DNA of 64,000 nt. It comes from Paraburkholderia ginsengiterrae. Its GTDB lineage: Bacteria; Pseudomonadota; Gammaproteobacteria; Burkholderiales; Burkholderiaceae. How positions within the stretch are numbered: the stretch's first letter is position 1; the number at the start of each line of letters is the position of its first letter. Where the stretch lies: positions 1 through 64,000 of the forward strand of contig NZ_LXKA01000287.1 in assembly GCF_001645125.1 (NCBI RefSeq), written 5' to 3'. Of this stretch, positions 7,806 to 48,657 are shown one piece after another. The notes under the pieces are model-generated. The model was not told the DNA's origin. It searched no databases and saw only the letters and a program-made list of their open reading frames with translations. Made by a program: the position numbers and the translations under genes.

Positions 7806-8135
7806 TCAGTTCATCACGTAGTTCTGAATCAGAATTCCGACGATCACGCCGAACGGAATGCCGAAGGTCCGGCCGCGAAGCGTCGCGTTGATGTCTTCAT
7901 CGAGCACGAAGCTGCAGCGGCGCTCGCGCCAGACGGTTTTATAGGCCAGGGGCTTCGCATCGACGATCACGATGGAAACTAGCACGGTCACGATGACCTG
8001 TTGCAATGCATGAAGTTTGGCAACAAACGGCGAAAATTGGCCGGCGTTGCACAACAGCACCATGATGACAGCGGCAATCAGGGTGCCGAAGAAAAAGCCA
8101 CTCATGAATCGACTGGCTGAAGTATTTGAATCCAC
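7806..8135 (-). CDS. Small membrane protein of unknown function
   Basis: I do not recognise this family. The C-terminal part has three hydrophobic stretches: MSGFFFGTLIAAVIMVLLC, VIVTVLVSIVIVDA and FGIPFGVIVGILIQNYV, with a polar loop (ERRCSFVLDEDINATLRG) between the last two. I place the start at GTG 8135, giving 109 residues, because GAGG lies five bases upstream; ATG 8105 and ATG 8252 have no ribosome site. The leader is AT-rich and strongly structured (see separate entries). Convergent with the porin; nudK lies upstream on the same strand, 211 bases away. Confidence 0.55.
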   Translation of the reverse strand: MDSNTSASRFMSGFFFGTLIAAVIMVLLCNAGQFSPFVAKLHALQQVIVTVLVSIVIVDAKPLAYKTVWRERRCSFVLDEDINATLRGRTFGIPFGVIVGILIQNYVMN

Positions 8136-8151
8136 TGGAACCTCGGCTTGG

Positions 8152-8177
8152 TTCGCCACTTTGATAAGGGTGGCGAA
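8152..8177 (-). promoter_or_regulatory. Leader hairpin of the small membrane-protein gene
   Basis: TTCGCCAC (8152-8159) and GTGGCGAA (8170-8177) pair perfectly around 10 bases, ending 17 bases from the chosen GTG start, close enough to affect ribosome access. Confidence 0.4.
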
Positions 8178-8281
8178 ATAAAAAATATTCAAAGGGGAAG
8201 GGCGTGCCACGTGAAGAGCCGGTGCCGTTTTGAATGCGGCACCGATCTTCATTCAGGGAACACGTAAGAATATTTTTTATT
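8177..8281. repeat. 14-bp perfect AT-rich inverted repeat
   Basis: AATAAAAAATATTC (8177-8190) is repeated inverted as GAATATTTTTTATT (8268-8281), 77 bases apart, upstream of the small membrane-protein gene. The AT content is far below local GC, so this is a likely protein-binding or promoter region. Confidence 0.6.
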
Positions 8282-8359
8282 GCCTGTCGCGGCCTATCGT
8301 CCTTTTCCTAATGCGAGATAGGATGCGTCCTAAAAACGTGGAAACTCGCCGCTCGCCGT

Positions 8360-45893: not shown

Positions 45894-46718
45894 TCAGCCC
45901 GGAGCCGCCCCCGTCAACTGCGCATACACGTCGTGCGACAGTTGCAGCAACTGAGCCCGTTCGATCCCGCCTGACACCGCATAGCCGAAGTCGCCGTCGA
46001 TCCAGTAGAACACGTTCACCGGCCCGTCCTGATACAGCTTGAACGCGGTCGTGTTGGCGTTCTGCTTGCGGCGCGAGATGCACAGCGTGACGCGTTCGCC
46101 GTTCGGTCCGCGATACATGAACTGCGCGGTTGGGCCGTCGGCGCCGGGCAGCAGGCGTCCGCCTGACAGAGCAAAGCCGCTCTTCGAAAGAATCGGCGGA
46201 TGAACGTTGGTGCCGAGCCGGTTCGAGAGCCACTGCACGAAATCCTGCTCGTGATCGGCGCGCATACCGGCCGGCCGGTCAATGGCGGGCATGTAGACCA
46301 CATGCGCCACCGCCGCCTGGTGCGCGAACATTTCGGTGCTGTCCGCACTGACGGGGCGCGTGGCGGAGTGACTGTCCGCGGCGGGCGCAATCACGTCCTG
46401 TCCCATATGCGTGCCGACGCCAATGCCCACGCCCAGCACCAACGCCGCCGCCATTCCCGCGAACTGCGGCCAGTTCGCGGCCATGCGCCAGCGGCGCGGC
46501 GCGGGCGCCAGCAGGCGCTTGGGCACGGGCTCGCTCAACACGCGGTCGTAGCGCTCGTGGAACATGCTGTTCAGCGAAAAATAATCGCTGATGCGCGCGG
46601 CAAGTTCGGGATTCTGTTCGAGTGCCCGCTCCACATCCGCACGGCGTGCGTCGGACAGCGTGCCGTCCACGTACGCGTGCAGTTCTTCTTCGCCGATCGG
46701 CAAGTGTTGGTCGCTCAT
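45894..46718 (-). CDS. Anti-sigma factor, membrane-anchored
   Basis: A 274-residue protein: an N-terminal anti-sigma domain (PIGEEELHAYVDGTLSDARRADVERALEQNP, read in parts, residues 7-37), a membrane segment near residue 88-105 (FAGMAAALVLGVGIGVG), and a periplasmic domain with VQWLSNRLGTNVHPPIL. It begins four bases inside the sigma gene and is thus translationally coupled, the usual arrangement for a sigma/anti-sigma pair. No Cys/His zinc motif in the N-terminal domain, so redox sensing by zinc release is unlikely. Confidence 0.88.
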   Translation of the reverse strand: MSDQHLPIGEEELHAYVDGTLSDARRADVERALEQNPELAARISDYFSLNSMFHERYDRVLSEPVPKRLLAPAPRRWRMAANWPQFAGMAAALVLGVGIGVGTHMGQDVIAPAADSHSATRPVSADSTEMFAHQAAVAHVVYMPAIDRPAGMRADHEQDFVQWLSNRLGTNVHPPILSKSGFALSGGRLLPGADGPTAQFMYRGPNGERVTLCISRRKQNANTTAFKLYQDGPVNVFYWIDGDFGYAVSGGIERAQLLQLSHDVYAQLTGAAPG

Positions 46719-47233
46719 CGCACCACCTTTAATTTTGCGCCGGGCTGCGAGCCCGCCATCAATGCCCGAAGCCGCTCGCGTCCCCGCGACAGGCGCGACA
46801 TCACCGTGCCGATCGGAATGTTCAGCGCGAGCGCCACGTCGGCATAGCTCATTTCCTCGAGACCCACCAGCAGCACGACCTCACGCTGTTCCATGGGCAG
46901 GCGCTGCAACGCGTAGTCGAGATCGCGCATTTCCAGCGAGCGGGTCTGCGCGGGCGGCACGGCGAATTCGCTTTCGTGCACGCTGTCGTCGTCGACCGCC
47001 ACGTGAATCGCGCGTGCCGAGGCCTTGCGCGCCTGATTGGCAAACACGTTGTGCATGATCGTAAACAGCCACGCGCGCAGGTCGGTGCCGGGCTGGAACA
47101 TGCCGGTGCGCCCGAGTGCGCGTTCGAGCGTGTCCTGCACGAGGTCGTCGGCGAGGTCGCGATTGTTGATCAGCGCGCGGGCATAGCGCCGCAGACGCGG
47201 CACGTGCTCCATCAGATCGTCACGGACATCCAT
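46715..47233 (-). CDS. ECF-type RNA polymerase sigma factor
   Basis: A 172-residue sigma-70-family factor with only region 2 (LRRYARALINNRDLADDLVQDTLERAL, DLRAWLFTIMHNVFANQ) and region 4 (LQRLPMEQREVVLLVGLEEMSYADVALALNIPIGTVMSRLSRGRERL), quoted in parts. ATG 47233 is preceded by GGGATG. Its own upstream region carries GGGAATAAA-N12-GTGTT, present twice more in the locus, which indicates positive autoregulation. Likely targets here include the DUF4148, peroxidase and cytochrome b561 genes. Confidence 0.94.
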   Translation of the reverse strand: MDVRDDLMEHVPRLRRYARALINNRDLADDLVQDTLERALGRTGMFQPGTDLRAWLFTIMHNVFANQARKASARAIHVAVDDDSVHESEFAVPPAQTRSLEMRDLDYALQRLPMEQREVVLLVGLEEMSYADVALALNIPIGTVMSRLSRGRERLRALMAGSQPGAKLKVVR

Positions 47234-47313: not shown

Positions 47314-47339
47314 AACACGCGTAGCTGCATTTTATTCCC
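47314..47339 (-). promoter_or_regulatory. Predicted ECF promoter P1 (sigma/anti-sigma operon)
   Basis: Minus strand GGGAATAAA (47339-47331), 12 bases, GTGTT (47318-47314); 80 bases lie between it and the sigma start codon. Same spacing as P2 and P3. Confidence 0.7.
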
Positions 47340-47374
47340 GTGGCTCGCATCAGATCGTGAAATACCGGCGCGGA

Positions 47375-48112
47375 TCAGCGCGTGGTCAGGGAGTCGGCCG
47401 CGCGCATCAGGCCGTGGGCGCGGGCGTCGCCGGCCACCACGAAGCGCTTCAGGCGCGCGCTCCAGAACAGCAGACGAATATCGCCGATACGGCGGGCGTA
47501 CCACTGCGGCTGCGCCCGCCCCCATTGCGCCCCCGCCGAAAGCAGCCCCACCGTCTCGTTGTCCCCGTTCATGTAGACAAATTCGTCGATGCGCTGAAGC
47601 GGGCCGGGCGACAGCATTTTCCGGTCCACGAGGCGCAGTCCGATCGACGCGAGATTCGGCGCGTCCAGGTCGGCCCGCGTCGGCGAAGCGGCGGAAAATC
47701 CCGCGGCGGCGGTCTCGGCCAGCGCCATGACGGCGGCGTTGTTGAGCGACTGGGCGGACACCTGGGCGGTTGCCAGCCAGCCGCTTGCCACTGCCAGCGT
47801 CAGGGCGAGCGCGGCCAGCGTGTTGACGAGCTTGCGGGTGCGCCGCGTGGCGCCGATCCGGCCGAACGTGCCGCGCCATGCACCGGCGCGGCCTGGCGCG
47901 GGTTCGTCGGTGGTTTGAAAGGCGGCCTGGACCTGCGCGTTCAGCCTGCCGTAGAACGCCACCCGGCGCGCCTCCGCCGGATCCTTGCTCAGATACGCGC
48001 GCAGAAACTCCGCGCGCTCGGGCATCAGCGTGCCGTCGGCGTAGGCCTGGATGTCAGCTTCGGAAATCGGCGAATCGGATGGGGTGTCGGTGGTCATGGC
48101 GTCGGCTTGCAT
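47375..48112 (-). CDS. Second anti-sigma-like membrane protein
   Basis: A 245-residue protein whose N-terminus (SEADIQAYADGTLMPERAEFLRAYLSKDP, read in parts) matches the anti-sigma domain of the 45894 gene in the same positions (LHAYVDGTLSDARRADVERAL), then a linker, one membrane segment (LAALALTLAVASGWLATAQV, about residue 100) and a periplasmic domain. So one sigma factor has two possible membrane regulators. ATG 48112 is chosen as closest to P2; ATG 48097 is possible, neither with a strong ribosome site. 141 bases before the sigma gene on the same strand. Confidence 0.78.
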   Translation of the reverse strand: MQADAMTTDTPSDSPISEADIQAYADGTLMPERAEFLRAYLSKDPAEARRVAFYGRLNAQVQAAFQTTDEPAPGRAGAWRGTFGRIGATRRTRKLVNTLAALALTLAVASGWLATAQVSAQSLNNAAVMALAETAAAGFSAASPTRADLDAPNLASIGLRLVDRKMLSPGPLQRIDEFVYMNGDNETVGLLSAGAQWGRAQPQWYARRIGDIRLLFWSARLKRFVVAGDARAHGLMRAADSLTTR

Positions 48113-48135
48113 CGGTTGTCCGCTATCGATGTGCG

Positions 48136-48161
48136 AACACACTCAGAGCTCGTTTATTCCC
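48136..48161 (-). promoter_or_regulatory. Predicted ECF promoter P2 (second anti-sigma-like gene)
   Basis: Minus strand GGGAATAAA (48161-48153), 12 bases, GTGTT (48140-48136), 23 bases before ATG 48112. Confidence 0.7.
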
Positions 48162-48195
48162 GCTTTCGACTATGTTTTTGCCGTGGCGCCGACGC

Positions 48196-48221
48196 AGGAA
48201 TAAAAGCCGCGAACCCGTGGT
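48196..48221 (+). promoter_or_regulatory. Predicted ECF promoter P3 (DUF4148/peroxidase unit)
   Basis: AGGAATAAA (48196-48204), 12 bases, GTGGT (48217-48221), 42 bases before ATG 48264. Back to back with P2, 34 bases apart. Confidence 0.65.
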
Positions 48222-48580: not shown

Positions 48581-48657
48581 GATGGAATAGATCGGCGATT
48601 GATGTGTTCGCCCCTATGTTTGCCCACCAGGCGCATCCATCCGAGAGAGGAGTTGTT

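Follow-up and report, generated by a model that had tools for sequence, protein, structure and literature searches.

Within a 64,000-nucleotide stretch of the genome of the soil bacterium Paraburkholderia ginsengiterrae (assembly GCF_001645125.1, contig NZ_LXKA01000287.1, positions 1 to 64,000; hereafter the window), a locus encodes an extracytoplasmic function (ECF) sigma factor, an anti-sigma factor, a second anti-sigma-like membrane protein (p255), a small DUF4148 protein, a catalase-family heme protein and a cytochrome b561. We conclude that this locus very probably forms an ECF26 regulon that is autoregulated, holds two anti-sigma factors in the membrane and has the DUF4148, catalase and cytochrome b561 genes as its output. 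The sites that would connect these genes, termed P1 to P4, are listed with the genes in Table 1.

The original prediction had placed three identically spaced promoters, P1 to P3, in this locus. All three are real and lie at the positions and on the strands given for them, P1 and P2 as exact matches and P3 with one mismatch, each with a 12-base spacer after GGAATAAA and each pointing at a gene. A fourth site before the catalase gene, P4, had been overlooked; its end lies 52 bases 5′ of the catalase start codon (GTG 48661), and its spacer is also 12 bases.

The argument that three such sites are hard to explain by chance survives only under strict scoring. At three mismatches the window contains eight matches, but shuffled sequences average 4.57 and 10 of 100 reach eight, so this count is not distinguishable from chance. 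Exact matching of GGRAATAAA-N12-GTGKT, in contrast, finds three sites in the 8.53 Mb genome and none for the reversed pattern. At ≤1 mismatch there are 10 sites, three of them inside the 908 bp from P1 to P3, where simple proportion (10 × 908 / 8,533,041) would lead one to expect ∼0.001. Leaving out the window's own sites, we also derived a matrix from 119 sites of orthologous loci and scored both strands of the window. Its top four places are P2, P1, P4, and P3 (24.1–27.7 of 27.7 bits), and at ≥15 bits the window yields six rows at five places (the fifth at 8259, minus strand), compared to a mean of 0.17 rows and a maximum of one in 30 first-order Markov sequences. Chance likeness of three short sequences, which the count at three mismatches would allow, is refuted by conservation of the sites in the four sets of loci described below (51, 80, and 28 sigma loci and the trans catalases; reversed controls 0, 0, 1/28, and 0), and we give it practically no credence.

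Conservation was assessed at 51 same-genus loci and at 80 Burkholderiaceae loci, two sets that share species and are therefore not independent; sites were counted at ≤2 mismatches, and denominators are the loci in which tblastn found the gene. In the 80-locus set, P1 was found in 65/80, P2 in 78/78, P3 in 46/56, and P4 in 39/39 loci, with a reversed control of 0. The locus of P. xenovorans LB400 (L198), which belongs to this set, carries P1 to P4. The corresponding figures in the 51-locus set were 37/51, 49/49, 17/22, and 16/17, with 0 for the reversed sequence in each class. The complementary strand of the 51-locus set gave matches in 0/51 (P1), 12/49 (P2), 16/22 (P3), and 3/17 (P4), which the divergent partner sites listed for these loci would account for. 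Orthologous loci that keep the genes, where loss of the motif had been proposed as a check, thus keep P2 throughout and P4 with a single exception.

Spacing proved less uniform across genomes than in the window: P2 has a 12-base spacer in 22 loci of the 51-locus set and a 13-base spacer in 27. Among matched sites of that set, identity is 100% in the first six columns of the motif, 62–100% in the rest of the core, and 29–93% in the spacer; the matching procedure itself partly dictates the core figures, but not those of the spacer. A further set of 28 Burkholderiaceae loci (two from the same genus), obtained by searching 60 genomes, carries a site ≤1.5 kb upstream on either strand in 21/28, against 1/28 for the reversed locus scored on one strand. 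When grouped by sigma identity, the site is present in 11/11 loci at ≥71% and in 10/17 at 36–53%. In two loci (L296 and L297) p255 is divergent from the sigma gene, yet each of the two genes has its own site. This cross-genome conservation in the 51-, 80-, and 28-locus sets strongly supports the predicted autoregulation through a shared ECF-type promoter.

Target genes located away from the sigma gene extend the comparison. Catalases resembling that of the window, at any similarity, are present in 97 of the 98 genomes searched. From these we took 32 close catalases (68–76% identity) remote from the best sigma match, 25 on other contigs and seven sharing its contig at a distance of ≥0.78 Mb (e.g. 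G053, with the sigma gene at C1:20369 and the catalase at C1:1649745). All 32 have a site (≤2 mismatches, within ∼400 bases upstream), 29 of them at ≤1 mismatch, whereas the reversed pattern gave 0/32. A site on the complementary strand is present in 10/32, and in four loci, where the wider region was read, it faces a divergent DUF4148 gene. For twelve trans loci, G028 and 11 of the 32, a stretch of 9–12 kb was read, ∼3–6 kb per side. Catalase is accompanied by cytochrome b561 in all 12, four also have a DUF4148 gene that is divergent and carries a site of its own, and no relative of the sigma factor, anti-sigma factor, or p255 was detected over these 9–12 kb at E 1e-4.

Sites were checked for catalases in the 77%, 68–76%, 63–66%, and 48–50% identity bands. 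Six additional catalases (77% and 63–66%) all have exact sites, but five of them lie 17–70 kb from a second sigma (61–65% identical), which makes the six less compelling as evidence that a sigma acts at a distance. Distant paralogues (48–50%), a small pick of many, have the site in 0/8. Because the site has been kept after the gene left its regulator's neighbourhood, the 32 trans loci are the best comparative evidence here for a sigma factor acting in trans: judged by sequence, the target module retains its promoter in trans, and this predicted promoter is independent of linkage to the sigma gene.

Across the 98 genomes there are 223 exact GGAATAAA-N12/13-GTGTT sites, sigma-locus sites included, compared to seven for the reversed pattern, and 81 genomes have at least one. 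Twenty sites outside the sigma locus were picked before their genes were viewed, and 10 products were scanned against Pfam: three are DUF4148 proteins, two catalases, and one each a sigma factor, a YjgF, an AraC-type, and a DUF305 protein, while the last, without a match, looks anti-sigma-like by eye. Another 20 regions contained seven DUF4148 genes; they are not a fair sample, because they had been chosen partly for look-alike sites. Among 34 DUF4148 genes, 29 lack such a site.

By homology to RpoE6 of Sinorhizobium meliloti and by promoter consensus, the window sigma factor is ECF26-type. The pSymA record is unannotated, and its RpoE6 open reading frame (ORF) was recognised through the published ecfR6 promoter, which sits within the end of that ORF; the window sigma shares 43% identity with this ORF over 157 aa. 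A search of this genome with RpoE6 also places the window sigma in the top three, well above all others (C339, 129 bits; window sigma, 115; C46, 114; next best, 77), and the N-terminus of the anti-sigma factor resembles the product of the gene after RpoE6 (33% over 60 aa, E 2e-5). P1 to P4 and their orthologous sites fit the published ECF26 group consensus, −35 GGAATA and −10 GT, and mapped S. meliloti promoters have nearly the same sequence as the window sites (PMC6180224); the rpoE1 operon promoter reads GGGAATAAA-N13-GTGTC (PMC6180224, PMC3511301). Since the motif is this published consensus, the binding specificity was already known, and the sequence does not point to a new one.

A conserved pattern alone cannot separate a binding protein from polymerase, and the repeated element might be the operator of a conserved transcription factor instead of a −35/−10 pair. 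The sites are, however, asymmetric, oriented towards genes, spaced by 12–13 bases, and similar to mapped ECF26 promoters (PMC6180224 Table 1), and a consensus scan of the locus turned up no sigma-70-like promoter, although this last point is weak evidence. We regard an operator as very improbable.

A stronger competitor accepts the sites as real ECF26 promoters and has them read mainly or jointly by one of the two other ECF26-type sigmas of this genome, C46 (84% identical to the window sigma) or C339, as a shared regulon. The three RpoE6 matches above speak for it, as do the overlapping targets of RpoE1, RpoE4, and RpoE6 in S. meliloti (PMC3511301, PMC6180224) and the activation of a heterologous ECF26 promoter by several S. 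meliloti ECF26 sigmas (PMC10880074). P1 and P2 nevertheless remain beside the window sigma gene in nearly all loci, as autoregulation predicts, which leaves the shared regulon somewhat unlikely. We do not claim exclusive control by the window sigma, because the genome has three such sigmas and those of S. meliloti cross-activate.

The sites face the genes originally assigned to them, but the transcription units differ from those first proposed. In loci without P1, the gap between the p255 and sigma matches is ≤133 bases in 13/14 and 158 in the fourteenth, compared to 128–309 bases in the 35 loci with both P1 and a p255 match. The short gaps where P1 is absent suggest that P2 drives a p255–sigma–anti-sigma operon, with P1 supplementary where room exists; P2 is thus probably the main operon promoter and P1 an internal one. 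The DUF4148 gene and the catalase–cytochrome b561 pair would each have a separate promoter, P3 and P4, respectively, so the pair would fall under P4 and not under P3 as first thought.

Table 1. Genes and predicted promoter sites of the locus (window coordinates; mismatches relative to GGRAATAAA-N12-GTGKT).
Feature	Coordinates	Strand	Remarks
Anti-sigma factor, 274 aa	45894..46718	-	HC2-like N-terminus, hydrophobic segment, C-terminal domain
ECF sigma factor, 172 aa, ECF26-type	46715..47233	-	Pfam Sigma70_r2 4.6e-14, Sigma70_r4_2 5.5e-16
P1, predicted ECF26-type promoter, GGGAATAAA-N12-GTGTT	47314..47339	-	Upstream of sigma/anti-sigma; exact match
p255, second anti-sigma-like membrane protein	47375..48097	-	240 aa from ATG 48097, 245 aa from ATG 48112
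P2, predicted ECF26-type promoter, GGGAATAAA-N12-GTGTT	48136..48161	-	Upstream of p255; exact match
P3, predicted promoter, AGGAATAAA-N12-GTGGT	48196..48221	+	Upstream of DUF4148 gene; 1 mismatch
DUF4148 small protein, 89 aa	48264..48533	+	Signal-like N-terminus; Pfam PF13663 2.5e-12
P4, predicted promoter, TGGAATAGA-N12-GTGTT (also written TGGAATAGAT-N12-GTGTT)	48583..48608	+	Upstream of catalase–cytochrome b561; 2 mismatches
Catalase-family heme protein, 362 aa	48661..49749	+	N-terminal hydrophobic segment; Pfam PF00199 1.8e-25
Cytochrome b561, 179 aa	49746..50285	+	Pfam PF01292 1.5e-29; start overlaps catalase stop

Pfam matches of the sigma factor are restricted to Sigma70_r2/PhyR_sigma2 and Sigma70_r4/r4_2, i.e. 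to regions 2 and 4 only. The anti-sigma gene overlaps the sigma gene by 4 bases. Its product matches Pfam zf-HC2 with E 2.6e-4 (21.4 bits, just below the cut-off of 22.2) and two NCBIfam anti-sigma profiles with E ∼9e-7, both below their cut-offs; the hydrophobic segment was spotted by eye in the alignment, and the predicted model is poor (pLDDT 56.8). In the catalase, the PF00199 match spans residues 64–343, and the nearest solved relative by sequence is 3e4w (E 1.2e-35); this short 362-aa form may be SrpA-like.

A Pfam scan of p255 gave no match. Profile alignment to the anti-sigma family with hhalign (probability 98.8, E 4.3e-17, 220 columns) indicates that p255 and the anti-sigma factor are paralogues. 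The predicted model, taken from ATG 48112 (mean pLDDT 80.6), has N-terminal helices at residues 18–26, 31–43, and 45–66, a long helix at 90–115, and then an alpha/beta C-domain; as modelled, p255 thus combines the features by which class I anti-sigma factors are recognised, namely homology to a sigma-linked anti-sigma, a helical N-terminal domain, and a membrane helix. Its start is probably ATG 48097 or 48112, GTG 48142 being disfavoured because it would overlap the −10 element of P2. p255 would then act as a second anti-sigma factor and make the system a double brake. It might instead be a sensor or co-regulator of the downstream anti-sigma, as RseB/MucB are with RseA/MucA, which would leave the promoters unchanged; we consider this unlikely.

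The regulon we favour would operate as follows. The sigma factor, which we infer to bind P1 to P4, would recognise −35 GGAATARA and −10 (C)GTGTT across a 12–13 base spacer, and an envelope signal would free it from its membrane-bound anti-sigma factor(s). Freed sigma would transcribe its own operon from P2, reinforced by P1 in positive autoregulation, and would switch on the defence output, that is, the DUF4148 protein from P3 and, from P4, the catalase-type heme protein together with cytochrome b561 as its partner. Both brakes would be remade at once on induction, with p255 restoring the off state as the second anti-sigma. Cytochrome b561 may hand quinol electrons to the periplasmic heme protein, providing periplasmic peroxide defence.

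Several observations weigh against this regulon. P1 is missing in 15/80 and 14/51 loci, P3 in 10/56 and 5/22, and P4 in one of 17 (51-locus set), and seven of the 17 distant family loci have no site within 1.5 kb upstream. Many sites of the trans catalases have CTGTT, TTGTT or a 13-base spacer instead of GTGTT with 12. The genome scan suggested with the original prediction holds at exact matching, as given above, but at ≤2 mismatches comes near background (63 sites vs 49 for the reversed pattern), so the motif alone cannot list the regulon. The C46 and C339 sigmas may share P1 to P4. As to the signal, an oxidant of the periplasm or envelope, perhaps peroxide, is a guess that gene content and H2O2 induction of Burkholderia cenocepacia BCAL3478/BCAL3477 (PMC2830190) suggest.

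Further ECF26-like sites and sigma genes were seen in passing. The fifth place of the matrix in the window, 8259–8284 (minus strand), reads GGCAATAAA-N12-GTGTT and lies immediately 5′ of a 148-aa reading frame (7806–8252, minus strand). Elsewhere in this genome, at G000:C347:30319-30415 (L062 3320-3416), a divergent site pair separates a DUF4148 gene from an unannotated reading frame of 63 aa, and one of the pair is the third exact match of the whole genome. The second sigma, G000:C46 (L061 9676-10191, minus strand; L186), adjoins a YncE-like beta-propeller gene, with no detectable anti-sigma or p255 within the stretch read; DUF4148 genes lie nearby, one of which has a site at 1 mismatch, and ∼3 kb from the sigma there is a sulfite-oxidase-like gene, part of a gene series behind a divergent site pair.

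Among the other loci, one DUF4148 gene (L275, from 1542) is preceded by two tandem exact sites ending at 1417 and 1493, 76 bases apart. In L312, ∼160–193 bases before the sigma match, a palindromic element carries GGAATAAA...GCGTT on both strands with one mismatch each, a possible bidirectional ECF promoter in which each −10 overlaps the opposite −35. In L417 and L418, a different catalase (∼60%) precedes, on the same strand, an exact GGAATAAA-N13-GTGTT site with a further sigma gene after it (pieces of 32–56% identity in L417, 37% in L418). Two genomes have a 49-aa peptide behind an exact site (L277:1685-1834, L278:1665-1814), with a signal-like N-terminus and two cysteines, ending QCVGPAG.CTPYFGS.

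More tentatively, and with somewhat less than even confidence, the locus may represent a two-brake ECF26 switch, in which a single sigma lies between two diverged membrane anti-sigma paralogues, both behind sigma-dependent promoters, joined to a portable DUF4148/catalase/cytochrome b561 cassette that is wired in trans to the sigma and moves around Burkholderiaceae genomes with its own promoters. If so, two periplasmic inputs may need to be relieved, both brakes would be rebuilt on induction, and DUF4148 proteins would in part be ECF26-controlled envelope-oxidant proteins. For this Burkholderiaceae sigma, so far uncharacterised, the analysis supplies a concrete candidate promoter and a short list of targets. 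It links the sigma to the catalase–cytochrome b561 pair and to part of DUF4148, a large family whose function is unknown, and presents a clean system in which to study by experiment how a sigma factor with two anti-sigma paralogues is switched.

The promoter type is known from rhizobia, whereas we did not find this target-gene set described in the literature searched. The closest parallel in promoter type is S. meliloti RpoE1/RpoE4 (ECF26) with EcfR1/EcfR4, which likewise form autoregulated sigma/anti-sigma pairs (PMC6180224, PMC3511301). Their reported output is the sulfite oxidase SorT with its partners, and their signal sulfite, in contrast to the DUF4148, catalase, and cytochrome b561 genes of the window, which also has a second anti-sigma-like gene; ECF26 control would thereby extend from rhizobial sulfite metabolism towards probable peroxide defence. 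S. meliloti RpoE6 (SMa0143, ECF26) shares an anti-sigma gene directly downstream of the sigma, but is divergent to a serine protease and has another regulon (PMC6180224). Among autoregulated oxidative-stress pairs, the RpoE-ChrR type (PSPTO_1043) and Bradyrhizobium japonicum EcfF-OsrA are comparable in logic but differ in promoter, reported as TGATCC-N16-CGTA (PMC5507510) and GTAAC(g,a)-N14/15-(c,t)CG(t,a) (PMC3420878), respectively. In gene arrangement, the locus resembles B. cenocepacia EcfB (BCAL3478), an ECF sigma described as PrtI-like, with an anti-sigma gene nearby and a divergent catalase, BCAL3477, both BCAL3478 and BCAL3477 being H2O2-induced (PMC2830190, PMC2194791).
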